This document shows, piece after piece, positions 26,285-47,676 of a stretch of DNA of 64,000 nt (position 1 is its first letter; each line of letters opens with the position of its first letter). Made by a program: the position numbers and the translations under genes. This DNA comes from Oxalobacteraceae bacterium AB_14 (GTDB lineage Bacteria; Pseudomonadota; Gammaproteobacteria; Burkholderiales; Burkholderiaceae_D), in contig KB906726.1 in assembly GCA_000381565.1 (NCBI GenBank), forward strand, positions 1 through 64,000, given 5' to 3'. Below the pieces are notes generated by a model. The model was not told the origin of the DNA. It was given only the letters and a program-made list of their open reading frames with translations, and did not search any database.

Positions 26285-27682
26285 ATGGAAAATTTCTGGC
26301 AGACCTGCTCCGCCCAGCTGGAGCTGGAGCTGACGCCGCAACAATTCAGCGCGTGGATAAAACCGCTCATCCCCCTCGACTACGAGGCGGGCAAGTTGCG
26401 TGTGGCCGCGCCCAACCGGTTCAAGCTGGACTGGGTCAAGACCCAGTTCGCCAGCCGCATCACGGCCCTGGCCTGCCAGTATTGGGAAGCGCCGACCGAG
26501 GTGCAGTTCGTGCTCGATCCGCGTTTGTCCATGCCGAAAAAGGCCGCGACCGTGGCGCCCGTACCCGACCACAACGGTGGCGTCCCGAGCGGCAACGCGC
26601 GCATGGCCGATCCGGTGCCGTCGGTGCCGGAGTTGCCGGCTTCGGCCGCGCCGCGCCGCGAACAGAGCCGCATCAACACCGACCTGACCTTCGACAGCTT
26701 CGTCACCGGTAAGGCCAACCAGCTGGCGCGCGCCGCCGCGATCCAGGTGGCCAACAACCCGGGCGTGTCGTACAACCCGCTGTTCTTCTACGGCGGCGTC
26801 GGCCTGGGTAAGACCCACTTGATCCACGCGATCGGCAACCAGGTGATGGCCGACCAGCCGGGCGCCAAGATCCGCTACATCCACGCCGAGCAGTACGTGC
26901 GCGACGTGGTGACGGCCTACCAGCGCAAGGGCTTCGACGACTTCAAGCATTACTATCATTCGCTCGACATGCTGCTGATCGATGATATCCAGTTCTTCGG
27001 CGGCAAAAGCCGCACGCAGGAAGAGTTCTTCTATGCGTTCGAAGCGCTGATCGCCGCCAAGAAGCAGATCATCATCACCTCGGATACCTATCCGAAGGAA
27101 ATCACCGGCATGGACGACCGCCTGATCTCGCGCTTCGATTCCGGCCTGACGGTGGCGATCGAGCCGCCGGAGCTGGAAATGCGCGTGGCGATTCTGTTGA
27201 AAAAAGCCAAGCAGGAAGGGGTCACGTTCTCGGACGACGTCGCCTTCTTCGTGGCCAAGCACCTGCGCTCGAACGTGCGCGAGCTGGAAGGCGCGCTGCG
27301 CAAGATCCTGGCGTACTCGCGCTTCCACGGCAAGGACATCACGATCGACATCGTGAAAGAAGCGCTGAAGGATCTGCTGTCGGTGCAGAACCGCCAGATC
27401 TCGGTGGAAAACATCCAGAAGACGGTGGCGGACTTCTTCAACATCAAGGTGGCCGACATGTACTCCAAGCGTCGCCCGGCCAACATCGCGCGGCCGCGCC
27501 AGATCGCAATGTACCTGGCCAAGGAGCTGACGCAGAAGAGCCTGCCGGAGATCGGCGAACTGTTCGGTGGCCGCGACCACACCACCGTGCTGCACGCCGT
27601 GCGCAAGATCGCGCTGGACCGCACCAAGAACCCGGAATGCAACCACGAGCTGCACGTGCTGGAGCAAACCTTGAAGGGCTGA
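26285..27682 (+). CDS. dnaA: chromosomal replication initiator DnaA
   Basis: This 465-residue AAA+ initiator binds DnaA boxes and opens the origin. Domain I is at residues 1-90 ([21 protein letters not shown]), a short linker follows, the ATPase domain has Walker [10 protein letters not shown] and Walker [10 protein letters not shown], and the C-terminal DNA-binding domain ends with the signature [15 protein letters not shown]. Length is typical for betaproteobacteria. A REP-like palindrome follows its stop. Confidence 0.98.
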
Positions 27683-27686
27683 CAAC

Positions 27687-27712
27687 GTCATTCCCGCGCA
27701 GGCGGGAATGAC
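27687..27712. repeat. REP-like palindrome (copy 3)
   Basis: GTCATTCCCGCGCAGGCGGG continuing to AATGAC forms an almost perfect 26-base palindrome four bases after dnaA. It matches the copy at 8747-8772 and may serve as a terminator or stabilise the dnaA transcript. Confidence 0.75.
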
Positions 27713-27824
27713 ACAGTGGCGGACCGGATGGTTTGGCTTTATGATCTAGGCAAAAAAGCACGTCTGCTCACAAGGCAACATTGTTATAAAAATATCGTTT
27801 AATCTTTACTATTGAGGATAATCT

Positions 27825-28931
27825 ATGCAATTGGTCAAAACCACCCGAGATACCCTTCTCCGGCCACTGCAGATCGTGAGCGGTATTGTCGAGCGTCGGC
27901 ACACTATGCCGATTCTGGCCAATATCCTCATCCGCAAAGAGGGCGAGAGCGTATCCTTCCTGTCGACCGACACCGAAGTCCAGATCACCACCAACGCCGA
28001 GATCGGTTCCGGCAGCGAAGTGGCCGGCACCACCGTGGCCGCGCGCAAGCTGCTCGACATCCTGCGCGCGCTGCCTGAATCGGGCGACGTGACGATGACC
28101 CTGCTGAACAAGCGCCTGACGGTACAGACCGGCAAATCGCGCTTCGCGCTGCAGACCCTGGCCGCCGAAGAATTCCCGACCGTGCAGCAGGCCGACAGCT
28201 ACAGCGCCTCCGTCACGCTGCCGCAGAAAACCCTGAAGCACCTGTTCAACATGGTGCACTTCTCGATGGCCCAGCAGGACATCCGCTACTACCTGAACGG
28301 CCTGCTGCTGGTCCTGGACGGCAAGAACGTGATCGCCGTGGCCACCGACGGCCACCGCCTGGCGTTCTGCCAGGTCGAGACCGAGCAATCGTTCGAGCGC
28401 CAGGAAGTGATCATCCCGCGCAAGACCATCATCGAACTGCAGCGCCTGCTGGAAGAGAACGACGAAACCGTGCAGCTGGACATCGCCGCCAACCAGGTCA
28501 AGCTGACCTTCGCCGACATCGAGCTGATCTCCAAGCTGGTCGAGGGCAAGTTCCCCGACTACACGCGGGTGATCCCGAAGGGCTACAAGAACGAATTCAC
28601 GATCGGCCGCGATGAGCTGCTGCGTTCGCTGCAACGCGCCGCCATCATGACCAGCGACAAGTTCAAGGGCGTGCGCTGCATCATCACGCCGGGCAGCATG
28701 AAGATCAGCTCGACCAACGCGGACCAGGAAGAGGCCGTGGAGGAAATGGAAATCGACTACGGCGGCGACAGCGTCGACATCGGCTTCAACGTCACCTATC
28801 TGCTGGACGTGTTGAACAACCTGAAGTGCGACCAGGTCAACGTCGCGCTGGGCGATTCGAACTCGTCCGCGCTGATCTCGATCCCGGACAATGCCGACTT
28901 CAAGTACGTCGTCATGCCGATGCGTATCTAA
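27825..28931 (+). CDS. dnaN: DNA polymerase III beta clamp
   Basis: The 368-residue sliding clamp tethers DNA polymerase to its template. It begins MQLVKTTRDTLLRPLQIVSG, contains the three-domain repeat, and ends with the clamp signature YVVMPMRI. The length is canonical. It follows dnaA after a 142-base gap that contains the REP-like hairpin and an AT-rich stretch (TTATAAAAATATCG) that probably supplies a separate promoter. Confidence 0.97.
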   Translation: MQLVKTTRDTLLRPLQIVSGIVERRHTMPILANILIRKEGESVSFLSTDTEVQITTNAEIGSGSEVAGTTVAARKLLDILRALPESGDVTMTLLNKRLTVQTGKSRFALQTLAAEEFPTVQQADSYSASVTLPQKTLKHLFNMVHFSMAQQDIRYYLNGLLLVLDGKNVIAVATDGHRLAFCQVETEQSFERQEVIIPRKTIIELQRLLEENDETVQLDIAANQVKLTFADIELISKLVEGKFPDYTRVIPKGYKNEFTIGRDELLRSLQRAAIMTSDKFKGVRCIITPGSMKISSTNADQEEAVEEMEIDYGGDSVDIGFNVTYLLDVLNNLKCDQVNVALGDSNSSALISIPDNADFKYVVMPMRI

Positions 28932-28982
28932 CGCATCGCAGCTTAACCTTGCTACAGCCGTAAGAACGTAAGTAATCGATAA

Positions 28983-31502
<2,520 letters not shown>

Positions 31503-33450: not shown

Positions 33451-33475
33451 AATTGAGTTGGAAAAAATGGACATT
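33430..33475. promoter_or_regulatory. perfect 17-bp inverted repeat operator
   Basis: AATGTCCATTTTTTCCA (33430-33446) and its exact complement TGGAAAAAATGGACATT (33459-33475) flank a 12-base centre containing TACAAT. It lies 10 bases before the ATG at 33486 and is a strong candidate operator for the XRE protein encoded downstream (34131-35213). Confidence 0.8.
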
Positions 33476-33485
33476 GGGAGCTTCT

Positions 33486-34124
33486 ATGGATGCGATCGTT
33501 CGACAGGATTCTGGTGATGTGCAATCTCGCTTGGCGCAACTTGGCTTGAAGCGTGAGCATTTGATCGAGGTTGTGAAGGCTTGTGTCGCGGGCTTCACGA
33601 GCTGCACAGATAACGATCCTCCAGGAGCTCCAGGCTGGTTGTCTTGGCGATGGGGCGTGCGGCGAGCGCGGGAAGTGCTTCTGCCCTTGGGCTGGGAAAA
33701 GAGCGACTCCGGCATCTCCACTGTCGTTAACAGATCCCTCAAGCTGCGCTTAGCTATTTTGAATGCTGACGAGGGGGCGGGCTCCAGGGACGCTGTTCCG
33801 CAAAACCGTTCGCGGAAAGGACCGAATTCGGAGCGCCTAGCTCAGGTAAACAGGCAGATGATGCCGGGAGCGGAGGATTGGCCAATTCCAGCAGGCGAGC
33901 CGCAAGAAAGCATTGAGGATTTCTCTACTTGGCATCTTTGCGTGAACGTAGGAAAGGATCAGGTGACTGCTGAGCTCACCTTGTTGTCCGATTTTGAGGA
34001 TGGATATTTTACGCGGTTTATTGAAAAGATAATTATTGTGGGATCTGGTGAGTGGAATGCGATTGTGTTTAGCGAACCAGATGATGATTCACCTGAGCCT
34101 GAGGTTCGTGTTGTTAGGAAGTAA
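33486..34124 (+). CDS. hypothetical partner of XRE-ImmA/IrrE protein
   Basis: I do not recognise this 212-residue soluble protein. Its N-terminal part (LKREHLIEVVKACVAGFTSC and GAPGWLSWRWGVRRAREVLL) looks like a compact helical domain, the middle is basic, and the C-terminal third is acidic with beta-strand character (KIIIVGSGEWNAIVF). GGGAG five bases before the ATG fixes the start. It is followed six bases later by an XRE-ImmA/IrrE gene, an arrangement used by two-gene toxin-antitoxin or defence units (compare RosmerTA, by memory only). Control by the perfect inverted repeat just upstream is likely. Low GC suggests transfer. Confidence 0.7.
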   Translation: MDAIVRQDSGDVQSRLAQLGLKREHLIEVVKACVAGFTSCTDNDPPGAPGWLSWRWGVRRAREVLLPLGWEKSDSGISTVVNRSLKLRLAILNADEGAGSRDAVPQNRSRKGPNSERLAQVNRQMMPGAEDWPIPAGEPQESIEDFSTWHLCVNVGKDQVTAELTLLSDFEDGYFTRFIEKIIIVGSGEWNAIVFSEPDDDSPEPEVRVVRK

Positions 34125-34130
34125 GATTTA

Positions 34131-35213
34131 ATGTTTAACCCGTTGAGATTGAGCTTGGCGCGTCGTCGGAGAAAATTTACAAAGAAAGCCTTAGCTGAGG
34201 CCGCAGGATTTGATCAAAAAACTATTATTAGGTATGAAAGTGGTGAGGTTGATCCTCCAGCTGAGAGTGTCGCTTCTTTAGCGACGGTCCTGCAGTTTCC
34301 GCAGTTGTTTTTCTTTGGAATGGATGTGGACGAGCCAAGCGCGGAAGCGGCTAGTTTCCGTTCGCTAAGTACGATGCCTGCTAGGGACCGAGATGCGGCT
34401 CTGGCGGCAGGTGCTTTTGCGTTTATGTTTAATGATTGGGTTGATTCACGTTTCCATTTGCCCGAAGCGGATTTGCTTGATTGCAAAGAAGATACTGATC
34501 CTGAGGCGGCAGCAAGGACTCTCCGGGAGAAATGGGGAATGGGGGAGCGTCCTATTCGTAACATGGTTCATTTACTCGAATCTAAGGGGATTCGTGTTTT
34601 CTCATTGGCCGAGAATACAAAGACAGTCGATGCTTTTTCAATGTGGCGTAATGACGTCCCTTACGTATTTTTGAATACTACGAAAACGGCAGAGAGAAGT
34701 CGGTTTGACGCTGCTCATGAGCTTGGTCACTTGGTTCTGCACAAGCATGGTGGTCCGCAGGGCGGGCGGCTAGTCGAGGATCAGGCCAATCAATTTGCCT
34801 CAGCTTTTTTGATGCCAGAATCACAAGTGCGGGCGAAGATGCCACGAGTTGATAGCCTCGCGAATATTGTCGAGGGAAAACAGTATTGGCGAGTTTCAGT
34901 TGCTGCATTGAATTATAGACTTCATAAGCTGGGAGTAACCAGTGATTGGCAGTATAGGAATTTCTGCATTCAGATTGCAGAGAGGTATCGTCAATCTGAA
35001 CCTAACGGAATAGCCCGGGAGACTTCGACTGTTTGGGATAAGGTCTTAGGCGAACTGCGTGCGGAAGGGATTAGTAAGTCCAATATTGCGACTGATTTAG
35101 CTTTGCCTGTTTTCGAGGTCGAGAATCTCGTGTTTAGATTAACCAATATGCAAAGTATTGATGGCCTTGGAGCAAATACAACTAAGATGACGGGGCATTT
35201 GAAACTAGTATGA
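34131..35213 (+). CDS. XRE-family regulator with ImmA/IrrE peptidase domain
   Basis: This 360-residue protein fuses an N-terminal helix-turn-helix (residues 1-60; KKALAEAAGFDQKTIIRYES) with an M78-type metallopeptidase whose zinc site is HELGH at residues 196-200. Proteins of this type cleave partner repressors or act as antitoxins with a co-encoded toxin. Its operon partner lies six bases upstream, and the 17-bp inverted repeat at 33430-33475 is a plausible binding site. Codon use is AT-rich relative to the core. The C-terminal 80 residues are of unknown fold. Confidence 0.85.
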   Translation: MFNPLRLSLARRRRKFTKKALAEAAGFDQKTIIRYESGEVDPPAESVASLATVLQFPQLFFFGMDVDEPSAEAASFRSLSTMPARDRDAALAAGAFAFMFNDWVDSRFHLPEADLLDCKEDTDPEAAARTLREKWGMGERPIRNMVHLLESKGIRVFSLAENTKTVDAFSMWRNDVPYVFLNTTKTAERSRFDAAHELGHLVLHKHGGPQGGRLVEDQANQFASAFLMPESQVRAKMPRVDSLANIVEGKQYWRVSVAALNYRLHKLGVTSDWQYRNFCIQIAERYRQSEPNGIARETSTVWDKVLGELRAEGISKSNIATDLALPVFEVENLVFRLTNMQSIDGLGANTTKMTGHLKLV

Positions 35214-35562
35214 TGATCGCGCCGTGAACCGTGGCTATCACAATGGTAGTTATGAAAATTGCCACTCGGCCTTGAAAATGATGCTATAGTAAGAATGCTT
35301 CATGTAAAGACATGGAGGTGTGTTACAAGTTGTCAAATCCGCCCGGCAGCGAGATCGCCAGGACGATTGATAGCAGCGCGATGACAGGTCTCCGCAAGGT
35401 AGCCTCCAGTAGCATGTGAACATTGTACGTCATTCCTAACAAACGCGGCCAGGCCCCTAACAGGGTGAAATGGTAATAAGATTACTCGGTTTATCCGGAA
35501 GGGCGGTTCGTAGATTGCCGCCATCTTCGCTCTTCCGGTTTGCTAAGCGAGGACGCTAGCTG
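35214..35562 (+). ncRNA. candidate structured non-coding RNA upstream of reverse transcriptase
   Basis: These 349 bases lie between the ImmA gene and the reverse transcriptase and hold no credible sense-strand gene. An extended -10 (TGCTATAGT at 35281-35290) could start an RNA near 35297. Hairpins include CATGT-AAAG-ACATG, GTAAT-AAG-ATTAC, and a strong two-tier stem at 35495-35538. DRT2-type and related defence reverse transcriptases use such a leader RNA as template. The RNA ends and folding are inferred. Confidence 0.55.
35495..35538 (+). repeat. two-tier hairpin before reverse transcriptase
   Basis: CCGGAAG (35495-35501) pairs with CTTCCGG (35532-35538), and inside it GGCGG (35502-35506) pairs with CCGCC (35518-35522). 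The structure ends 24 bases before the GTG start of the reverse transcriptase. Confidence 0.7.
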
Positions 35563-36840
35563 GTGTATAAAAAGAAAGAACCTTGGTTTCGTAGGAGGGG
35601 GTACCTTCATTTTGATCGCCCAGTAGGTCAAACTTCGGCACATGCGATTGTCGCCGATCCCGCACGTGTCGCCGCGCGTAGCTTTTTCCCTTTTCTCGAT
35701 TTCGATATCACCAGTACTAAGGTGAAGTGGGACGATGATTTGCGAAAACTTGTGCGCAAGCGCAAGGATCGAAAAGTTGCTTATGCATCGCATATTGACT
35801 GTCATATTTTCTCCTATTATTGCCACGCGCTTTCTGCTCGGTATGAAGCGGAAATAGCTAAGCGCGGACTTTCTAAGAACGTCTTAGCATTTAGGGCACT
35901 AGGGAAGAGCAATATACACTTTGCCGCCGAAGGTTTTTCCGCAATTGCGCAACGAGGTAGCTGCTACGTCTTGGGGCTGGATATCAAGGGGTTTTTCGAT
36001 AATCTAAATCACAAGATACTGAAGACTGCTTGGGCTTCGGTTCTTGGAGAAGAACATCTGCCGAGCGACCACTATGCCGTCTTTAAGGCCATTACACGAT
36101 TTTCGATGGTGAATTTGGATAGCGTACTTGATTTATTGAGGATTTCTAAAAACAATCCCAAGAACAAGCGCCACCGGCTCTGTACTCCGCAGCAATTCAG
36201 GGATACGGTCCGAGCGTCTGGCCTGATTAGGCCGCATAAGCAGGCTTATGGAATTCCCCAGGGATCTTCCATCAGTGCGCTTTTGTCGAATATTTACATG
36301 CTTGAATTCGATTCCTGTATAAAAGTATACGTTGAACAGTGTGGAGGGCAATATTTCCGATATTGTGACGATATGCTATTTATTGTGCCGCTTGAAGAAA
36401 AGCCTAATTGTGAGGCGTTTGCTAAAACGGTTATTGCCCGTTTTGGGCTGGAAATTCAAGATGCTAAGACGGAGCGTCGCGAGTTCGTTTTGAAGGATGG
36501 CCGACTTGTTACTGAAAAGCCGCTCCAGTACCTTGGGTTCTTGTTTGATGGCGAGAAAACATACCTCCGCTCGGCATCTTTAGCTAGGTATTCTGACCGA
36601 GTAAAGCGAGGCGTGCGCGTTGCGAAGGCAACTATGGCGAAGCGGAATCGAGCGCGGGTCGCGCGTGGCGAGGACCCGCGCCCCCTCTTTACTAGTAACC
36701 TTATGCGCCGGTACACATACTTCGGGCGGCGAAATTTTATTAGTTATGGTTATCGAGCTGCGAAAATTATGAACTCGGATGGCATCCGCAAGCAGCTGCG
36801 CCCACTATGGGGAAAGTTCCGGCTTGTGCTAAAGAGCTGA
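35563..36840 (+). CDS. defence-type reverse transcriptase (DRT2-like)
   Basis: This 425-residue stand-alone RNA-dependent DNA polymerase has finger motif YVLGLDIKGFFDNLNH with the first catalytic aspartate, the GIPQGSSISALLSNIYMLEF motif, and the catalytic box YCDD at residues 267-270, followed by LQYLGFLFDG. It lacks maturase and endonuclease domains (not a group II intron protein) and no variable repeat is nearby (not a diversity-generating element). The YCDD box, the PWFRRRGYLHFD N-terminus and the 349-base leader fit the DRT2/UG2 class, though from memory. It starts at GTG with GAGG upstream. GC is low, implying transfer. Confidence 0.8.
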   Translation: MYKKKEPWFRRRGYLHFDRPVGQTSAHAIVADPARVAARSFFPFLDFDITSTKVKWDDDLRKLVRKRKDRKVAYASHIDCHIFSYYCHALSARYEAEIAKRGLSKNVLAFRALGKSNIHFAAEGFSAIAQRGSCYVLGLDIKGFFDNLNHKILKTAWASVLGEEHLPSDHYAVFKAITRFSMVNLDSVLDLLRISKNNPKNKRHRLCTPQQFRDTVRASGLIRPHKQAYGIPQGSSISALLSNIYMLEFDSCIKVYVEQCGGQYFRYCDDMLFIVPLEEKPNCEAFAKTVIARFGLEIQDAKTERREFVLKDGRLVTEKPLQYLGFLFDGEKTYLRSASLARYSDRVKRGVRVAKATMAKRNRARVARGEDPRPLFTSNLMRRYTYFGRRNFISYGYRAAKIMNSDGIRKQLRPLWGKFRLVLKS

Positions 36841-36930
36841 ATTCGACTAACGGTGCTTGGGACTAGTGCGGAAAGGAGCTGCTGGGGCGGCTGAGGCGTT
36901 TTCGCACGCGACCAGAGAGCGACCAGAAAC

Positions 36931-36962
36931 AAAAAAGTCCACGAACCGAAATTCGTGGGCTT
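36931..36962. terminator. degenerate tRNA-associated terminator, Lys copy A
   Basis: CCACGAA (36939-36945) pairs with TTCGTGG (36952-36958), preceded by an A-run. It matches the terminator at 42984-43019 with point changes (GTCC for GCCC), so it is a decayed copy of the same element. Confidence 0.6.
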
Positions 36963-36975
36963 CCTTAATAATTCT

Positions 36976-37022
36976 TGGTAGGCCATGCGGGATTCGAACC
37001 TGCAACGCATTAAAAGTTCTTG
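36976..37022 (-). repeat. 3' fragment of tRNA-Lys, decayed copy A
   Basis: On the minus strand the sequence contains GCAGGTTCGAATCCCGCATG and GCCTACCA, the T arm and CCA end of tRNA-Lys, plus a trace of the TTTT anticodon region. Relative to copy B (43029-43084) it has a four-base deletion and several substitutions. The two copies are direct repeats flanking the type I restriction operon. Confidence 0.7.
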
Positions 37023-37162: not shown

Positions 37163-38950
37163 TCAGAGAGCCATCTCACCTATAACAGCGTGCTCAACTA
37201 ACACATCCGCCAACTTTTTCTGCTGTTGGCTGGCCGCAGTGATACGCGATCTAACTTGGTCGCACAACCCCATCAGTTCATCAACTTTAGCGACGATGCG
37301 GTGTTGTTCCGCGAAGGGTGGTAACGGAATAGGAATACTTCGGAAGTTACCTAAACCTATTCTCGTAAGCGTCAATCCGTGGTGATGTACTGCTGCGAAC
37401 TCGTGTGCCGTTACTGAGTTTAAGTAATGAAGAACATAGCTAGGAAAAACGAATGGATGTACCGAAAGACGGTAGCAATCTGCCTTAACGATTGCATGAC
37501 CAATATCATTCGGCGCAGCACAGCATCGGATCGAGGTATCGATTAGTCCTGCCACAATAAGATCGCCACCACGAACCTGATGCTTTGCCAATTTCTCAAA
37601 ACGCGCTTCGTCGATATAGGACTGGTACTCATTCCGGAACTCCCCATGGCCAATATTCTGCAACCGAATAACTCGATAGCCAGGTTGGTCGACGTAGTGT
37701 TCAGTCTTCAAATTTGCACCAAAAGGCCCATCGGTTATTGCGCTCGGATCGTCTGCGGAAATTTGATCTATCGAGGTCCATGACCAAGAATTGGGTAGAA
37801 AATCTTCTCGCAAAGGATCTATCTCTTCGCTCAGTGTAACGATCTTCCGCTTAGCTATTCTGGACCTTTGAATGCGATATGACAGCTCAAGCCCGGATTC
37901 ATCTCTCGAATCTTGTGCTACTAGTTTCCCCATGACCGCCAGCTGCAGCAAGGTTCGCTTGAGAGCGTTGATGCTTGCTTCAGTGATAAACAAGGTGTCG
38001 AAATGCGTGGCGATGCGTTGCCAGTTGGCGTTGAAGTCTGCTGCGCTTTGCGATTGCGTGAGAGTGCCTAGCAGGTGGCTGACGAGCTGTTCGTGGGCGT
38101 CGGCGGCGTTGCTGTGCTGGGTCTCTAGTTGGTCGCATAGGGCCATCAGTTCATCGACTTTGGCGACGATGCGATGTTGCTCTGCTAATGGCGGGAGCGG
38201 GAATGGATTTGACTCCAAAAATTCCTTTGGTAATCGCTTCTGACCAGCTGTGCCAGTCATTCTTCTTTCGCCATTTACCAAAAACTGTGGGGATTTGAGA
38301 TATGCTAAGACATAGCGTGGTGCGAGCGTTGAATTAATTGGCCTTACTACGTGTAATTCTGTCGTGCCCGCACCGATTTTATTTAAAAGCCCGGAAAAAA
38401 CGCACGCTTTACTGTTTTCAAAGCAAGGCGTGATTTTTGCTACGCCAATATCACCCTCCGCGAAATGGGTGAATCCTTGTTTAATTTCTTTCCAAAGTCG
38501 ATGCTCTTGATCGTGATGTGAATTAAATTTAGCTTCAATCATTGTCATGGTTACAAACGACACAAGCAAATCGTCTTCTACGGAATTTCTCGGATTAACT
38601 AAGGAAACAGCGGAAAGTGTTGACCACTCCCAGCCCAGTGGTAAATTGAAGGGTTTTTCAGTTCCGCTAATTGCTCCAAGTAGTTTGTCTTTCTTTATCT
38701 TGCCTTCCGCGACCAGTTTGCTTCTTTCAATCTGTATGCGTTTGATCAATTCACTGGCCGGTTCGTCGCTCGAATCTTGCGGCACCAGCTTCCCGCGTAC
38801 GGCGAGTTCCAGAATTAACTCGCGCAGTTTTTTGATGCCGTACACGCTCGCGGCGCTACCGGATGCACGGCCACGTCCCGATTTCTTTTCGGTTTCTGCT
38901 GCTGTCCAGATGTCGATGTGATCGGTCAGCAATTGCTGAATCGCACTCAT
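37163..38950 (-). CDS. hsdS: type I restriction-modification specificity subunit
   Basis: This 595-residue protein sets the DNA sequence recognised by the type I complex. It contains two target-recognition domains, each preceded by the conserved helical repeat: ILELAVRGKLVPQDSSDEPA near residue 45 and LLQLAVMGKLVAQDSRDESG in the middle, and each followed by a PLPPLAEQHRIVAKVDELM or PLPPFAEQHRIVAKVDELM block. Both halves look complete. It overlaps hsdM by four bases (ATGA). It is the final gene of the leftward hsdRMS operon. Confidence 0.93.
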   Translation of the reverse strand: MSAIQQLLTDHIDIWTAAETEKKSGRGRASGSAASVYGIKKLRELILELAVRGKLVPQDSSDEPASELIKRIQIERSKLVAEGKIKKDKLLGAISGTEKPFNLPLGWEWSTLSAVSLVNPRNSVEDDLLVSFVTMTMIEAKFNSHHDQEHRLWKEIKQGFTHFAEGDIGVAKITPCFENSKACVFSGLLNKIGAGTTELHVVRPINSTLAPRYVLAYLKSPQFLVNGERRMTGTAGQKRLPKEFLESNPFPLPPLAEQHRIVAKVDELMALCDQLETQHSNAADAHEQLVSHLLGTLTQSQSAADFNANWQRIATHFDTLFITEASINALKRTLLQLAVMGKLVAQDSRDESGLELSYRIQRSRIAKRKIVTLSEEIDPLREDFLPNSWSWTSIDQISADDPSAITDGPFGANLKTEHYVDQPGYRVIRLQNIGHGEFRNEYQSYIDEARFEKLAKHQVRGGDLIVAGLIDTSIRCCAAPNDIGHAIVKADCYRLSVHPFVFPSYVLHYLNSVTAHEFAAVHHHGLTLTRIGLGNFRSIPIPLPPFAEQHRIVAKVDELMGLCDQVRSRITAASQQQKKLADVLVEHAVIGEMAL

Positions 38951-40422
38951 GCCTTGGCTTCCCGTTGCAGAGCCTCGGTTAGTACGTCTTTGAGTTGTCC
39001 GCGCAGTGCGGCGATACCCTCCTGCATGGTCTTGTATTGGGCCAGCAGCAAATCAGGGTCGTAGGTTTCCTGCTCGCCGATGTGCGGGTTCCTACAGTCT
39101 AGATTGTAGTTGCGCCCCTTGATTTCTTCCAGGCTGACCTTCCACGCCTGTTCGTTCTCGACCCGGTGCGCGAAGCCGTCGGATTCCGTGCCCCACCACG
39201 CTGCCTCGGTATCGAATTCTTCGATCTTCATCGGCTTGGTCTTGTTGTAGCTTTTTATGCCGGGCGGGTATGGGTGCTCATAGAACCAGATGTGCTGGGT
39301 TGGCGTGCCCTTGCTGAAGAACAGCAGATTGGTCTTAATTCCGGTGTACGGGGCAAATACGCCATTGGGCAGGCGGACGATGGTGTGCAGATTGCAGTCT
39401 TCCAGCAGCTTTTCCTTGATGCGGGTCTTGATACCTTCGCCGAACAGGAAGCCGTCCGGCAAAACCAGTGCGGCGCGGCCGCCGGCTTTGAGCATTTGCA
39501 TGATCAACACGAGAAACAGATCGGCGGTTTCGCGGGTACGTAAAGCGGCGGGGAAGTTGGTTTCGATGCCGTCTTCCTCCATGCCGCCGAACGGCGGATT
39601 GGTGACGATCACATCGACGCGCTGTTGCGGCCCCCAGCTGATCAGCGGGTAGGACAAGGTGTTGTCGTGGCGGATGTTGATAGGTACGTCGATGCCATGC
39701 AGGATCATGTTGGTCGTGCACAGCAAGTGAGGCATCGGCTTCTTTTCGATACCCAGTATGCCCGTTTGCAGACGGCCTTCATCTTCTACAGTCTTCACAT
39801 CCTGTTTACGAATGTGCTCAATCGAACACGTCAGGAACCCGCCTGTACCGCAGGCTGGGTCCATCACCTTTTCGCCAAGGCGCGGGTTCACCATGCGTAC
39901 CATGAATTCGGTTACAGCGCGTGGCGTGTAGAACTCGCCAGCGTTGCCTGCGGCCTGCAGGTCGCGTAGCAATTGTTCGTACATGTCACCGAACAGGTGG
40001 CGCTCCTGCGCCTTATTGAAGTCAACGCCTTCCTGGATCTTGTTCACGACCTGCCGGATCAGCTGGCCGGACTTCATGTAGTTGTAGGCGTCCTCGAACA
40101 CGGAGCGGATCACGTAGGCGCGCTGGTCGCCACCTTTTGCTTCCAGCTGTTGGAGGGCGGGGAACATGTCGTTGTCGAGAAACTGCTTGAGTGCTTCGCC
40201 GGTCATGCCTTCGGCGTTTGCGGCCCAGTTACGCCAGCGGTATTTTTCAGGCAGCGGCGATTTGTAATTGTCTTGCAGCAGTTCCCATTCGCTCTCGCGG
40301 TCGTCGAAGATTTTCAGGAAAAGCATCCAGACCAGCTGGCTAAGGCGCTGAGCGTCGCCGTCGACGCCGACGTCTTTGCGCATAATGTCTTGGATGGATT
40401 TGATAGTGCTGGAAATGCTCAT
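38947..40422 (-). CDS. hsdM: type I restriction-modification DNA methyltransferase subunit
   Basis: This 491-residue N6-adenine methyltransferase has an N-terminal helical HsdM domain, the AdoMet-binding motif DPACGTGGFL and the catalytic NPPF (VIVTNPPFGG). Both are intact, in contrast to the degenerate homologue at 43446-45287. With HsdS it forms the modification enzyme and with HsdR the restriction complex. There are 45 bases between hsdR and hsdM. Confidence 0.95.
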   Translation of the reverse strand: MSISSTIKSIQDIMRKDVGVDGDAQRLSQLVWMLFLKIFDDRESEWELLQDNYKSPLPEKYRWRNWAANAEGMTGEALKQFLDNDMFPALQQLEAKGGDQRAYVIRSVFEDAYNYMKSGQLIRQVVNKIQEGVDFNKAQERHLFGDMYEQLLRDLQAAGNAGEFYTPRAVTEFMVRMVNPRLGEKVMDPACGTGGFLTCSIEHIRKQDVKTVEDEGRLQTGILGIEKKPMPHLLCTTNMILHGIDVPINIRHDNTLSYPLISWGPQQRVDVIVTNPPFGGMEEDGIETNFPAALRTRETADLFLVLIMQMLKAGGRAALVLPDGFLFGEGIKTRIKEKLLEDCNLHTIVRLPNGVFAPYTGIKTNLLFFSKGTPTQHIWFYEHPYPPGIKSYNKTKPMKIEEFDTEAAWWGTESDGFAHRVENEQAWKVSLEEIKGRNYNLDCRNPHIGEQETYDPDLLLAQYKTMQEGIAALRGQLKDVLTEALQREAKA

Positions 40423-40467
40423 GAAATAGACTGCTTTACTGTGATGGGTAAGTATGAAACCTTGCTG

Positions 40468-42849
40468 TTATGCGTAGAGTTGCTTCTCTAGCTCGTGCAG
40501 GGCGGTAGTATAGCCTTGCTTGCCGCCGAACGCCGATACCAGTTCGCTGGCGGTGCCCATGTTTTTGAAGGGATCAAGCGTGAGAATCTTGATGTCTTCG
40601 ATATTCTCTATGCCGGTGTCGGCGTATTTCTCGATCAGGGTTTCGAGTACCCTCCGCGCCTGCTCGCCGTACTTAGCAAAATAGTTGCGCTTCTTGACGT
40701 TGTCGGCACGTTCACGGCGGGTCAGCGGCGGCTGGTCGAAGGCGACATGGCAGATCAGATCAAAGGCGTCGAAATGCTTGCCGACTTCTTCTGCCAGCGG
40801 TTCGAGCAACACGCCATGCTCTTCCAATTCGCGCAGGATGGCGGCCTTGCGTTCGGTCTTGTCCCAGCAGCGCAAAAAGTCATCAAGGGATGAGTAATCC
40901 TTGCGAATGGTCTGGCGTGTGTAGTCTCTGAGAGATTCGGTGATCAGCTTGCCTTCGGGGCCGTAATACTGGACACGCTCGGCGACGATATATACTGTCA
41001 CGTCACCGAGCACGTATTTGACACGCCCTGAACCTGGTCCGCCCCCTTCGGCTGGCCTTGCGGTGGTGGGGCCGATATTAGCGCCGCCCGGTGGTATAGG
41101 CTGGCCGTCTTCGCCAATGACCACTTCGGTTGGATCGTTCTCTGGCGGTACGGGGGACTCTTCGCCTTTGGGTTCGTAGATGATGACGGGTTCGCCATCA
41201 AATGCGGGATCGGCAAACAGTTCCGTGGCTTTCTTGAAGTCCATGATGGTGAACCAGAACTTGCCGTAGTCTTCATTGATACGAGTGCCGCGTCCGATTA
41301 TTTGCTTGAACTCGGTCATTGACTTGATGTGCTGATCCAGTACCACCAACTTGCAGGTCTGCGCATCGACGCCAGTTGTCATCAGCTTGGATGTGGTGGC
41401 GATCACCGGGTAGCGTTCTTCAGGGTTAATGAAGTTGTCCAGCTCTGCCTTGCCTTCGATTTCGTCGCCGGTGATGCGCATGATGTATTTGCGGCTTTCC
41501 TTGACCCGTTCCGGATTCAGGTTGACCAGGGCCTGGCGCATGCGCTCGGCGTGGTCAATGTCGTCGCAGAAGACGATGGTCTTGGCGTAGGGATCAGTTG
41601 CCGTCAGAAATTCGGTGATCTTCTTGGCGACCAACTCGGTGCGCTGCTCCAGAATCAGGGTGCGGTCCATGTCGATCTGGTTGTACACCCGGTCTTCGAT
41701 CAGTTGGCCTTTTTTATCTACTTGGCCCTTGCTGGGACGCCAGCCCTGCACGTCTTTGTCGATGTCGATACGCACCACTTTGTATGGCGCGAGGAAGCCG
41801 TCCTCGATGCCTTGCTTAAGCGTGTAGCTATAGACCGGTTCGCCAAAATAGACAATGCTCGACACATCCTTGGTTTCTTTCGGTGTCGCCGTCAAGCCGA
41901 CGTGCGTGGCCGACGAAAAATAAGCCAGAATTTCGCGCCAAGCCGAGTCTTCCGCTGCGCTGCCGCGATGGCACTCGTCGATCACGATCAGATCGAAAAA
42001 GTCAGGCGAGAACTGCTTGTAGATGTTGTGTTCGTCCTCGCTGCCTGTGACAGCCTGATATAGGGACAGGTAGATTTCGTAGCTCTTGTCGATCTGGCGC
42101 TTGCTGATCTTGGTCATTGCCGCGCCGAAGGGCTTGAAGTCGTTGTTCTTGGTTTGATCCACCAAGATGTTGCGGTCAGCCAGGAACAAGATACGTTTTT
42201 TTGTGCTGGACTTCCACAAGCGCCAGATGATCTGGAACGCGGTGTAGGTTTTTCCGGTGCCGGTTGCCATGACCAGCAGAATGCGTTGCTGACCTTTGGC
42301 GACCGCTTCCACCGTGTTGTTGATGGCATTGGCTTGGTAATAGCGCGGCGCACGCCCGCTGCCGTCGTCGTAGTAGGGCATCTCGACCGTTCGGCAAGCT
42401 TCTGTCGTATTAAGGCCCTTCCACTCGCAATACCGTTGCCAAAGTTCAGCTGGCGACGGGAAGGCATCCAGCGCCAGTTCTCGTTCGACCGTGTCGGCCA
42501 AGCCAGTCCGGTCGTGCATCAGGAAGGCATCGCCGTTGGAGCTAAACACAAACGGTACGCCTAGCGTTTCAGCATAGTTCAGCGCTTGCTGCATACCGGC
42601 GCCGACGCTGTGCCCATTTTCTTTGGCCTCGATAACGGCGACCGGGATATTGGACTTGTAGTACAGAATGTAGTCGGCGCGTTTTTGTTCACCGCGCGCA
42701 TGGAGCTTGCCACGGACGATGACACGGCCCTTGGTGAAGCTTACTTCTTCGCGAATCTGCGAGTGTAGATCCCAGCCTGCAGTAGTGATAGCTGGTGTGA
42801 TGTACTTGGTGCAGATGTCGCGCTCGGAAAGGCTTTTTTTGTCGGTCAT
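40468..42849 (-). CDS. hsdR: type I restriction endonuclease and translocase subunit
   Basis: This 793-residue subunit cuts DNA and moves along it using ATP. The N-terminal nuclease site is Asp59 with Glu74-Ala-Lys76 ([11 protein letters not shown]); the helicase has Walker [13 protein letters not shown] and DECH ([15 protein letters not shown]); the C-terminal domain matches the EcoEI-type HsdR C-terminus. I chose the ATG at 42849 ([19 protein letters not shown]) over a TTG at 42918. It heads the operon and should be transcribed from a promoter between it and the tRNA-Lys remnant. Confidence 0.93.
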
Positions 42850-42983
42850 CGGAATATTGGGCCTTGAACGCTCTGGCTGTGATGTTTGAGTACGTGCAAG
42901 ATCATAGCTCAAAAGCAACGTTTAGTCGTGGGATACCTACCACCACCTCAACCGAGGCAAGCGACCAGAGAGTGAACAGAAAC

Positions 42984-43019
42984 AAAAAAGCCCACGAACG
43001 TAAATTCGTGGGCTTTTTT
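42984..43019. terminator. tRNA-associated terminator, Lys copy B
   Basis: GCCCACGAA (42990-42998) pairs with TTCGTGGGC (43005-43013), with an A-run on one side and a T-run on the other, so it can terminate in both directions. It lies just downstream of the tRNA-Lys fragment in the tRNA's orientation. Confidence 0.85.
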
Positions 43020-43028
43020 GATTATTCT

Positions 43029-43084
43029 TGGTAGGCCGTGCGGGATTCGAACCTGCGACCAACGGATTAAAAGTCCGCTGCTCC
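43029..43084 (-). repeat. 3' fragment of tRNA-Lys, copy B
   Basis: Read on the minus strand the 56 bases run from GGAGCAGCGG through the anticodon arm (ACTTTTAATC, anticodon TTT) and GGTTCGAATCC T arm to GGCCTACCA. The first 20 or so bases of tRNA-Lys (acceptor 5' strand and most of the D arm) are replaced by unrelated sequence, so it is an attachment-site remnant, not a gene. Confidence 0.85.
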
Positions 43085-43236
43085 GGTCGAAAGGGCCGAT
43101 ATGGTCCGTTGCAGTTCAATGGCCCCTAGGTATTACTTTGACTGTCGTGCGGGTGTCTTCTTCGCTACTCAGCCGCCCCTTTCGGATGCACATTCGCATC
43201 GGACAAACGCCGTTTCCACGTTAAACCAATCGTCTT

Positions 43237-43449
43237 CTAGACCACCCGAAGCTTCAGCACAATCACCAATATTGTCATCACAAGACCAATAATTGCAGTG
43301 GCACATATAGCCAAATCGCGCACGGCCAAGCGGCGCTGAAGCTGCTTCCATGCCTCCAGTTTGACTTCGGGGGGATCTGCCCGAAAGTGCTTGAAGTCGT
43401 CATGGTCTGGGGGGATTTTTAACATCGCTAGCATCCTCAATATCCTCAT
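43237..43449 (-). CDS. small membrane protein coupled to pseudo-methyltransferase
   Basis: This 70-residue protein has a cytoplasmic N-terminal half (LKIPPDHDDFKHFRADPPEV and a basic helix WKQLQRRLAVRD) and one C-terminal membrane helix (LAICATAIIGLVMTILVIVL). The ATG at 43449 overlaps the stop of the preceding gene (ATGA), so the two proteins are made together. I do not recognise a family. A small single-helix membrane protein attached to a DNA-recognition protein is the layout of several defence systems with membrane effectors, which makes it a candidate effector. Confidence 0.7.
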   Translation of the reverse strand: MRILRMLAMLKIPPDHDDFKHFRADPPEVKLEAWKQLQRRLAVRDLAICATAIIGLVMTILVIVLKLRVV

Positions 43450-45287
43450 TCCAACCGCCATAGGTCGGATGCAATAGCGGCCTGCTCACGAACCAGTAGA
43501 GCTAGCTGATCTTGAATCTCGCGTTCTTGCGCTAATGCATTGATTGCCCTCTGCGTCTCGTTGGAAGTCGGGACTGGAATTTTCAAGGACAGGAGTTCCC
43601 GTAGTTGAATAAGCGGCGTGGTGGCACCTGATACAACTCCGGCTAACAATGCCTGTCCCAACGGCGATCTAAGTAGCAAGTACAGGGCTGATGGATCAAT
43701 ATGTTTAAAGTCTTTCAAGCGCAGTACGATGCCAGACTGCCCTACTACCCATCCATTTGCTCCCGCAGCAGGAGCATTACTGGGCACAATACCAACCTTT
43801 CCAACACTGCCTTTGACGATCAGCACGATGTCATACGGCCGCAAAAAGTGAGCTGAAAATTCTTGTAGCGCAGACTCAGGCAGTTCTATTCGGCGAGGAG
43901 GCGATGAAATGAAGCCATACGCAGGAAGATCCAGCGCTCCCACTTCAGAAATCTCGCATCGGATCCCCACGTTGCCCAAATAAGCTCTTGTCCCCACGGC
44001 AGATAGTGGACGTACGGTCGCAACCAAGTCTCGCATTGTAAACGTTGGAACTCTGCTTAATTGAATAAGGAGGCTCCTTTTCGACGCTGGCAAGACGTGT
44101 CGATTGACCTGTAGATTCGAGTCGTTATGACAAAGATCCTCCACGGCTACTTTAGTGTACGCAGAGATGCTATCTCCGGTGTGCGTCAGAACCTCATCAT
44201 CATTTAGCGCTAACGAAACTAGCTCTTGAACCCCTTTCAATTTTGTCTGGGTTTTGGAAATCTGTTCCTGAAATTGAATTGCCGAGGCATCTACAAAATT
44301 TACGAATCGATTGCCACCAGATGGATCCAAAACAAGCACGGCAAATCCAGTTGTGGCACTCTCATGCAGTCCCTCTGGCATTGCGATCACTGCACGAACC
44401 ATTCCAAGTTTGAGTATATATTCTCGAAGTGACTTCTCAGCCCCCGAACTAAACAGCAAGCTATTAGGAACGGCCACCACAATTCTGCGCATCGTTTGCG
44501 CCAGGAGATGCCGCAAAGTCAAGACCGATCCGGCTGCTGTTTTTTCTGGAAATCTACGATATTGGTCTCCTCCAGCGATAGATTTGTCGTAACGAGCTGA
44601 AAGGGGAGGAAATGCTAAAGATGCTTCAAATTTATCCAGAATGCCACCATGAGTGGCTTGTGGTCGGACGATTGGATCCGTATAACAAATTTCTATGTTC
44701 GATGCCATCAGGATCTGAATCAGCTTTGGCACTTCCGAATGAATAGGAGTTTCAAGATACGCACGAGCGCCAACTATGCTGGTCAACGTAGCTAAATGAC
44801 CGAAGAAATCCCACGGCGTATAAACCGCATCACCCGGCGATAGCTCGCACAGTCGAACCATTAGATCGCATATTTCCGTCGGAATCGCTCCTAAGACTGC
44901 CACGCCGGCAGTCAGACTCGGCATCAAATCATCAATGGAAGGATGATCCAGCAGTCCATCCATGGCTAATTTCTCAGCCAAGTACACCAGGGAATTCACT
45001 ATAGCGGGGTCAAATTCCCGAACCTTAATAATGCTCGCGAACACGTCGTCGCGTTGCATATTGGCAGTTGAAGATATAAGGTTTTGTAGCGTCGACTCTA
45101 GGCCGCACATCCTAACTGTTGATATATGTTCATCGCCAGGGAGGGGGAGCTCGAAAGATAGCTTCGCCCAAGCCAGAAGTGCGATGCCCATGTGAAATGC
45201 CTCGTATTCGGACGCAGTTGCGGTCTTAAGGGTTGCGGTCGCTTGGCGTACGAAGTCGCGAACAGTAGGTGCTAAGTAGGATGTCAT
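43446..45287 (-). CDS. catalytically dead type I methyltransferase-specificity fusion
   Basis: This 613-residue protein has the order of a type I methyltransferase followed by a specificity domain: an N-terminal helical region (1-145), a methyltransferase-like core (150-380) and a target-recognition domain (about 400-613, with FSAHFLRPYDIVLIVKGSVG, VVGQSGIVLRL and a helical tail). Homology to HsdM is clear at AVPNSLLFSSGAEKSLREYI and AVIAMPEGLHESATTGFAVL. Yet the AdoMet loop reads YTPWDFFGH (residues 156-164) in place of DPxCGSGG, and the catalytic NPPF is FPPL at 226-229. It should bind DNA without methylating it. It is driven by a strong promoter and coupled to a small membrane protein. Confidence 0.8.
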   Translation of the reverse strand: MTSYLAPTVRDFVRQATATLKTATASEYEAFHMGIALLAWAKLSFELPLPGDEHISTVRMCGLESTLQNLISSTANMQRDDVFASIIKVREFDPAIVNSLVYLAEKLAMDGLLDHPSIDDLMPSLTAGVAVLGAIPTEICDLMVRLCELSPGDAVYTPWDFFGHLATLTSIVGARAYLETPIHSEVPKLIQILMASNIEICYTDPIVRPQATHGGILDKFEASLAFPPLSARYDKSIAGGDQYRRFPEKTAAGSVLTLRHLLAQTMRRIVVAVPNSLLFSSGAEKSLREYILKLGMVRAVIAMPEGLHESATTGFAVLVLDPSGGNRFVNFVDASAIQFQEQISKTQTKLKGVQELVSLALNDDEVLTHTGDSISAYTKVAVEDLCHNDSNLQVNRHVLPASKRSLLIQLSRVPTFTMRDLVATVRPLSAVGTRAYLGNVGIRCEISEVGALDLPAYGFISSPPRRIELPESALQEFSAHFLRPYDIVLIVKGSVGKVGIVPSNAPAAGANGWVVGQSGIVLRLKDFKHIDPSALYLLLRSPLGQALLAGVVSGATTPLIQLRELLSLKIPVPTSNETQRAINALAQEREIQDQLALLVREQAAIASDLWRLE

Positions 45288-45322
45288 CAAAAAAGTATCT
45301 GATACTTTTCAACCAGTGTCAA
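45287..45322 (-). promoter_or_regulatory. leaderless promoter with overlapping palindrome
   Basis: On the minus strand TTGACA (45322-45317), a 17-base spacer and GATACT (45299-45294) form a near-consensus promoter. The A of the ATG at 45287 is seven bases after the -10, so transcription probably starts on the start codon itself. The perfect palindrome AAAAGTATC-A-GATACTTTT (45309-45291) covers the -10 and is a likely repressor site. Confidence 0.7.
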
Positions 45323-45728: not shown

Positions 45729-47569
<1,841 letters not shown>

Positions 47570-47676
47570 ATACACCTCGTTGGGTTTCAAGGCTGCTCCG
47601 CAAAGCAGCCATCTTCTCAAAACGGTGTATCAGTTTTCAATCGCTGAGGTGTATCAGTTTACAACCGCTGCTGACA

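Follow-up and report, generated by a model that had tools for sequence, protein, structure and literature searches.

A DRT2 reverse transcriptase locus with a predicted neo template in an Oxalobacteraceae bacterium, and a template rule in homologous loci

The window, a stretch of 64,000 nucleotides from contig KB906726.1 of Oxalobacteraceae bacterium AB_14, contains a reverse transcriptase (RT) gene preceded by a noncoding leader (together 35214–36840). The RT gene (35563–36840, plus strand) is intact, with a GTG start and a TGA stop codon, and encodes a protein of 425 amino acids with the catalytic Asp motif LDIKGFFD at residue 139 and YCDD at residues 267–270. The first-pass annotation, made from the nucleotide sequence without database searches, had described a lone RT with YCDD at 267–270 and with neither a maturase nor an endonuclease domain; open reading frame and translation bore out the former, and Pfam analysis revealed RVT_1 alone. 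In the PADLOC profile search, the protein scored 633.5 bits with Drt2 (E 4.9e-191, residues 2–421 of 425), with a second Drt2 score of 513.7 bits; the next class among the best 25 of 76 matches was UG17 with 80.2 bits. The closest solved structures were DRT2 entries (9c0i and others, 472 to 465 bits), followed by the next entry at 29 bits, and the identity to Klebsiella DRT2 was 51% over 409 residues. In a phylogenetic tree of 55 rows (L031, L052, and L055 were left out as too short, and the Klebsiella row contained one wrong letter), the window RT grouped with homologues from Duganella and Rugamonas (support 98/94) within a betaproteobacterial clade (97/96), itself nested in a clade of 31 rows that includes Klebsiella DRT2 (98/88). 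Profile, tree, and similarity to the solved Klebsiella enzyme support the DRT2 class suggested in the first-pass annotation, for which placement in a clade lacking leader RNAs would have been the contrary outcome; the clade found has such leaders. The own genome of 7.03 Mb gave one match to the RT, and a match at E ≤ 1e-50 was obtained in 5 of 148 relatives, the own genome included.

An RmrA-like gene (34131–35213) lies directly upstream of the leader and is itself preceded by an RmrT-like gene (33453–34124); in the parts of the open-licence literature that were searched, RmrT/RmrA appeared in one passing mention. Further upstream are genes named from sequence (26285–31502), which we take to be dnaA, dnaN, and gyrB. 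The type I restriction operon hsdS-hsdM-hsdR (37163–42918, minus strand) is located downstream and is flanked by a 96 bp direct repeat with 89.6% identity (36908–37003 and 42961–43056), which carries a terminator-like hairpin together with a tRNA 3′ end; the corresponding tRNA is intact in the homologous locus L006. The restriction operon thus lies between two attachment-like copies, one of which adjoins DRT2. An Rfam tRNA match of 30.5 bits at 43032–43097 (minus strand), which ARAGORN did not report, is probably a truncated copy since it overlaps the tRNA 3′ part of the repeat at 42961–43056. The order RmrT-RmrA-DRT2 was conserved in the alignments with L006 and L017; L007 and L008 aligned only from the DRT2 leader onward and carry a different gene before it, which in L007 encodes an AAA domain. 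We infer that DRT2 acts as a cargo gene at insertion sites in tRNA genes. The window also contains an IS21-type pair (45729–47620) of an IstB-like ATPase and an rve-type transposase, the latter presumably IstA. A protein encoded beside this pair (43446–45290) matched both N6_Mtase and Methylase_S.

As the RmrA-like gene stops at 35213, the leader comprises 349 bases (35214–35562), and this length as well as the extended −10 element noticed earlier were confirmed. The element (TGCTATAGT, 35282–35290, plus strand) is the likely promoter of ncRNA and RT, and its pattern TGnTATAGT is conserved in L006–L009 and L017. In Klebsiella DRT2, the template starts at nucleotide 29 of the ncRNA (PMC12039810). 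By analogy, the window RNA should start near 35297, the first ~83 leader bases being promoter, and the predicted ncRNA would extend over 35297–35562 (plus strand), as deduced from the alignment and the Klebsiella start.

An Rfam search identified the 3′ scaffold as RF03016 RT-12 RNA (35437–35547, plus strand) with 70.4 bits at a gathering score of 44.2 (E 7.6e-10). It was the sole Rfam match in the leader, and in the whole window RT-12 and one tRNA alone reached gathering scores. The two-tier stem at 35495–35538 (plus strand), singled out among several hairpins in the first-pass annotation, falls within this match and corresponds to the long hairpin of the scaffold, with helix 2 covarying; it is scaffold and not template. 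When 20 further loci were searched, six of them (L006, L009, L010, L014, L020, and L025) had RT-12 at or above the gathering score, and the other 14, among them L062 and the divergent loci, did not. The open-licence literature searched did not name RT-12.

The secondary structure was analyzed by RNAalifold in an alignment of 20 leaders, which gave a 5′ handle hairpin (35298–35317, plus strand; 6 pairs, 5 of them changed on both sides) and the base of the long 3′ stem; in total, 12 of 14 pairs were changed on both sides. Paired cells amounted to 84.9% versus 66.8% in shuffled alignments, and covariation to 0.627 versus 0.296, with 0 of 500 shuffles as high, and the number of pairs changed on both sides was equaled in 6 of 500, values favored by the derivation of the consensus structure from the same alignment. 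A covarying structure is thus shared by leaders of homologues, the absence of which had been named beforehand as an argument against a template RNA. The folding energy of the single sequence was rejected as evidence, as the predicted stability of the leader did not exceed that of shuffled sequences (z −0.02).

Published DRT2 repeats have been inferred as the stretch between two ACA triplets, the first one included; their length is divisible by 3, one frame is free of stop codons, and a −35 and a −10 element meet over the repeat junction with a 17-bp spacer (PMC12039810). In the window, ACA-1 (35325–35327, plus strand) and ACA-2 (35439–35441, plus strand) are the putative jump triplets, with roles assigned according to PMC11100668 and PMC12039810. 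The former lies within and the latter just beyond a template of 114 nt (35325–35438, plus strand; 3 × 38) that ends at the base before ACA-2. The sequence ATTCC (35432–35436, plus strand) occupies the place that the primer-binding site has in Klebsiella (C, 5 nt, 2 nt, then ACA-2) and may serve the same function, as judged from PMC12039810. The opposite strand carries the hexamers TTGACA (−35; TGTCAA on the plus strand, 35331–35336) and TACAAT (−10; 35422–35427) of the gene neo, which are 17 nt apart only over the repeat junction, reading TTGACA ACTTGT/TAGGAATGACG TACAAT with the slash at the junction; this promoter agrees with 11 of 12 sigma-70 letters. In six repeats of the reverse complement, 12, 6, and 0 stops were counted in the three frames. 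The repeat (GMTYNVHMLLEATLRRPVIALLSIVLAISLPGGFDNLL, cyclic, 38 codons; 35325–35438, minus strand) is therefore stop-free in one frame alone, which is hydrophobic with a GRAVY of 0.98 versus −0.63 and −0.29 for the other frames. A stop-free frame by itself is weak evidence, as it was present in 54% of shuffled 114-mers. The complete ACA-promoter-ACA construct (≤1 mismatch) was found nowhere else on either strand of the 64 kb, and in 0 of 20,000 dinucleotide-shuffled leaders. Purifying selection on the window Neo was not found in the comparison with L006, which showed 1 synonymous versus 7 nonsynonymous differences. The earlier proposal that the leader is the template RNA is upheld by the ACA-bounded 114-nt template with its promoter and stop-free frame, and by the recurrence of this arrangement in 30 of 32 loci described below. 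It has to be narrowed, however, in that the evidence supports only the middle 114 nt of the leader as the putative template.

Two candidate start sites of neo are present on the minus strand. A GGAGG sequence (35403–35407) is a possible ribosome-binding site, with an in-frame TTG (35395–35397) after a gap of 5 nt. Alternatively, an in-frame ATG (35413–35415) begins at the seventh nucleotide after the neo −10, that is at about +1, and could act as a leaderless start. Both GGAGG-5-TTG and the ATG are shared by L006–L009 and L017, and peptide comparison revealed a Met codon in place of the TTG in several other loci. For Klebsiella neo, PMC11100668 reports that GUG was partly tolerated as start codon and that every other start-codon change was inactive. 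Translation in the window may possibly start at the TTG or at the ATG on the first base of the transcript.

Templates in homologous loci were selected by triplets and promoter letters only, and length and frame were evaluated afterwards; the selection was kept blind to the frame because circularity was to be avoided. The collection comprised 55 genome loci, of which L056–L060 (weak) and L049 (RT represented by no more than its final 71 residues) were not used as DRT2 loci, together with 3 of 57 viral loci (L065–L067) and 8 of 30 plasmid records; L001–L005 duplicate the window, L006, L007, L008, and L017. From 58 leaders given in the first selection (window, L006–L055, and L061–L067), 28 gave a match. 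All 22 leaders with at most 2 of 12 mismatches had a length divisible by 3 and the same frame open; the six weaker matches had no open frame. For an extended selection, the strand of three loci was corrected, one plasmid locus was added, and the triplet was permitted to be A[CT]A or to vary freely. The rule then held in 30 of 32 loci with an RT identity of at least 43%, a cut that was set after the results, with L139, L140, and L145 failing at 41%. The number of independent cases is lower than 32 because L006, L008, and L017 are near-copies (L064, left out, has the template of L013). The rule was obeyed by the window, L006–L013, L015–L028, L031, L061, L063, L065–L067, and L122; among these, L022, L025, and L026 passed in one selection and not in another that picked a different pair. 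Two loci failed in all selections, namely L014 from Marinomonas, where the RT-12 RNA is present with no recognizable template, and L062, where 133 nt between the triplets are not a multiple of 3 and the hydrophobic frame is shifted. Template lengths ranged from 99 to 129 nt. RNA family, covariation, and template rule all exceed what is expected by chance.

The jump triplets were ACA/ACA in most loci, GTA/GTA in L063, and ATA/ATA in L025; with ACA/ATA, two of three letters agree in L020, L024, L027, L028, and L122. The matched pairs lend natural support to the published model, according to which the growing DNA end is exchanged between the two triplets.

Nine Bacteroidota loci with a longer RT contain ATACC words that flank 150–159 nt, a length divisible by 3 in 9/9, with one frame open in 9/9. 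When 30,290 column pairs of these loci were tried, 1,890 gave lengths that were all divisible by 3, of which 1,759 had a common open frame. The open frame is therefore a property of the region, and the boundary is marked by the repeated word together with the promoter: among the 1,759 pairs, only the three registers of ATACC had identical triplets in 9/9. In the nine loci, the junction has the form TTTG-N20-TAnCTTTG, from which L047 and L048 deviate by one mismatch. According to PMC2483708, TAnnTTTG and TTTG are the −7 and −33 consensus of Bacteroides fragilis housekeeping genes. The boundary is not unique in L046 and L054, where CAATTTC (141 nt) is a further fitting word. The summed pN/pS of the nine loci was 0.70 and was counted neither for nor against.

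ATACC-flanked templates of 141–159 nt were observed in L041–L043, L045–L048, L050, and L054, and also in L032, L055, L127, and L128. These leaders have a stop-free concatemer frame and an ATG after the junction promoter TTTG-N20-TAnnTTTG. For a locus of the L046 type, repeats of 153 nt and a transcript start after TATCTTTG are predicted. Other jump words (AATT, ATAC, TATTTC, AATTC, TATTT, TTTC, TAATT, and TTCTAAA) occur in L033, L037, L038, L040, L051, L131–L133, L135, and L136.

An earlier test of the Bacteroidota leaders (word of at least 5 nt, TTTG and TAnnTTTG with ≤1 mismatch, spacer 19–21) gave matches in 16 of 32 versus 11 of 320 shuffled leaders. The wider pattern (T/C)TTG-N20-TA(A/C/T)(A/C)TTT(G/A), to which CTTG and TTTA had been added after L033, L037, and L040 were seen, matched 21 of 32 leaders versus 0 of 640 shuffled ones; it required word agreement of at least 4 nt at both ends and did not require the word to change from clade to clade. 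Templates flanked by these Bacteroidota words measured 129–162 nt. L131, L132, L133, L135, and L136 stood outside the choice of the widened pattern, although L131 and L136 had already come up in the earlier test, and L033/L038, L037/L051, and L043/L127 are near-copy rows. No match to the wider pattern was found in the other 11 of 32 leaders (L035, L039, L044, L047, L048, L052, L129, L130, L134, L137, and L138), among which ATACC fits in L047 and L048 if one promoter mismatch is allowed, and a different single candidate exists in L137. Viral contigs, searched with a Bacteroidota RT, gave no match.

Outside the Bacteroidota, two related Moraxellaceae loci (L141/L029) showed TATGT words 138 nt apart with a sigma-70-type junction, and two related Rhizobiaceae loci (L142/L143) showed CGTT, 129 nt, again with a sigma-70-type junction; the null for such fits was 15 of 300 at that threshold and 2 of 300 at one mismatch. 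The annotation of L142 and L143 contains a short minus-strand 'hypothetical protein' at the template site, immediately before the RT. L030 fits the rule only loosely. No rule-conforming template was identified in Nitratidesulfovibrio L139 (where the best candidate, of 145 nt, is not divisible by 3), Calothrix L140/L145, Ketogulonicigenium L144, and Patescibacteria L036, and in Bacillaceae L034 and L053 the candidate templates disagree with each other.

The annotation of Neo in divergent clades has been called 'more challenging' and alternative mechanisms have been raised in a preprint (PMC11100668), and diverse DRT2s have been predicted perhaps to rebuild other, phage-specific promoters (PMC12039810). 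No Bacteroidota neo was found in the open-licence literature searched or in these two texts. The Bacteroidota sequences favor the same mechanism, which would operate with a host-type promoter. Taken as a joint reading, we consider it likely that the neo rule is wider than published, in that distant clades keep neo, that jump word and junction promoter change jointly from clade to clade, in step with the RNA polymerase, and that Neo of the window clade starts at UUG or at a leaderless AUG.

Judged by its sequence, the locus 35214–36840 is a complete DRT2 (UG2) phage-defence locus of a known type, in which nearly all sequence features of DRT2 that could be checked are present. Enzyme class, RNA family, template boundaries, length, frame, and junction promoter were demonstrated in this work; a possible novelty could lie in the family-wide rule and not in this copy. 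We are highly confident that the locus is a DRT2 system that builds neo by repeated copying of its template. According to the Klebsiella experiments, on which the proposed binding, jumping, transcription, translation, growth arrest, and phage trigger are modeled, one promoter at about 35282–35290 would give rise to an RNA of ~270 nt plus the enzyme, which would grip the RNA through the 5′ hairpin and the 3′ scaffold. Upon phage infection, the enzyme would copy the 114-nt template; at the template 5′ end, the new DNA ending with TGT would re-pair with ACA-2, and copying would restart. The resulting tandem repeats would then become double-stranded, and every repeat junction would form the sigma-70 promoter TTGACA-17-TACAAT that is absent from the genome. 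From this junction promoter, an endless hydrophobic neo frame with 38 codons per turn would be transcribed, the product of which is predicted to halt growth and so the phage.

The locus might also be DRT2 by descent and have decayed or been reassigned, the enzyme still acting on the RNA with neo no longer being expressed or toxic. The lack of detectable amino-acid conservation of neo, its unusual start codon, and the decayed or altered leaders of the relatives L062 and L014 would fit this scenario, which we nevertheless regard as improbable: the enzyme ORF is intact with YCDD, and −35, −10, both ACAs, and the frame are kept here and in five relatives with 67–76% RT identity, apart from two mismatches in the −10 of L009. 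Even less probable is an enzyme of the DRT9 or DRT10 kind, whose product would be homopolymer or short-repeat DNA and not a gene. The layout with an RNA upstream of a lone RT would be the same, but the Drt9 (UG28) profile scored 59.8 bits versus 633.5 for Drt2, so that the enzyme did not qualify as Drt9, no DRT10 profile was among the best 25 of 76 matches, and a 114-nt coding template with a junction promoter exists. A retron or group II intron remnant, with which the locus shares general RT motifs, is virtually discounted, being refuted by the retron profile (54.4 bits among the matches listed, >400 bits below DRT2), by group II and retron structures (≤29.3 bits, >400 bits below DRT2), and by Rfam, which at gathering scores gave RT-12 and a tRNA alone in the window.

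With neo synthesis by DRT2 as the preferred reading, the window adds a betaproteobacterial DRT2 with nearly all checkable parts intact, whose predicted Neo peptide and non-AUG or leaderless start are directly testable. Across the family, the covarying jump words provide evidence from nature for template jumping as modeled, and the promoter type in Bacteroidota points to the same route of gene synthesis in divergent DRT2 clades.

One close counterpart is DRT2 from Klebsiella pneumoniae (KpnDRT2; PMC12039810, PMC11100668; PDB 9c0i). Both systems have a 425-aa RT with YCDD, an upstream ncRNA, an ACA-bounded template with a length divisible by 3, a junction promoter with a 17-nt spacer, and a stop-free hydrophobic frame. 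They differ in protein sequence (51% identity), in the repeat length (114 nt here versus 120 in Klebsiella), in the −10 hexamer (TACAAT versus TATAAT), and in the putative neo start, TTG or leaderless ATG here versus the canonical start implied for Klebsiella. Rfam RF03016 RT-12 was matched over its full length (model positions 1–117); the match begins 2 nt upstream of ACA-2 and runs to the end of the scaffold, template and 5′ hairpin lying outside. The Duganella/Rugamonas loci L006, L007, L008, and L017 and the Telluria locus L009 (67–76% protein identity) have the same 114-nt repeat and frame as the window, with templates that differ from it at 7 to 27 of 114 positions. On the 3′ side of DRT2, two intact tRNA genes are found in L006, whereas the window carries a truncated copy and the type I restriction operon.
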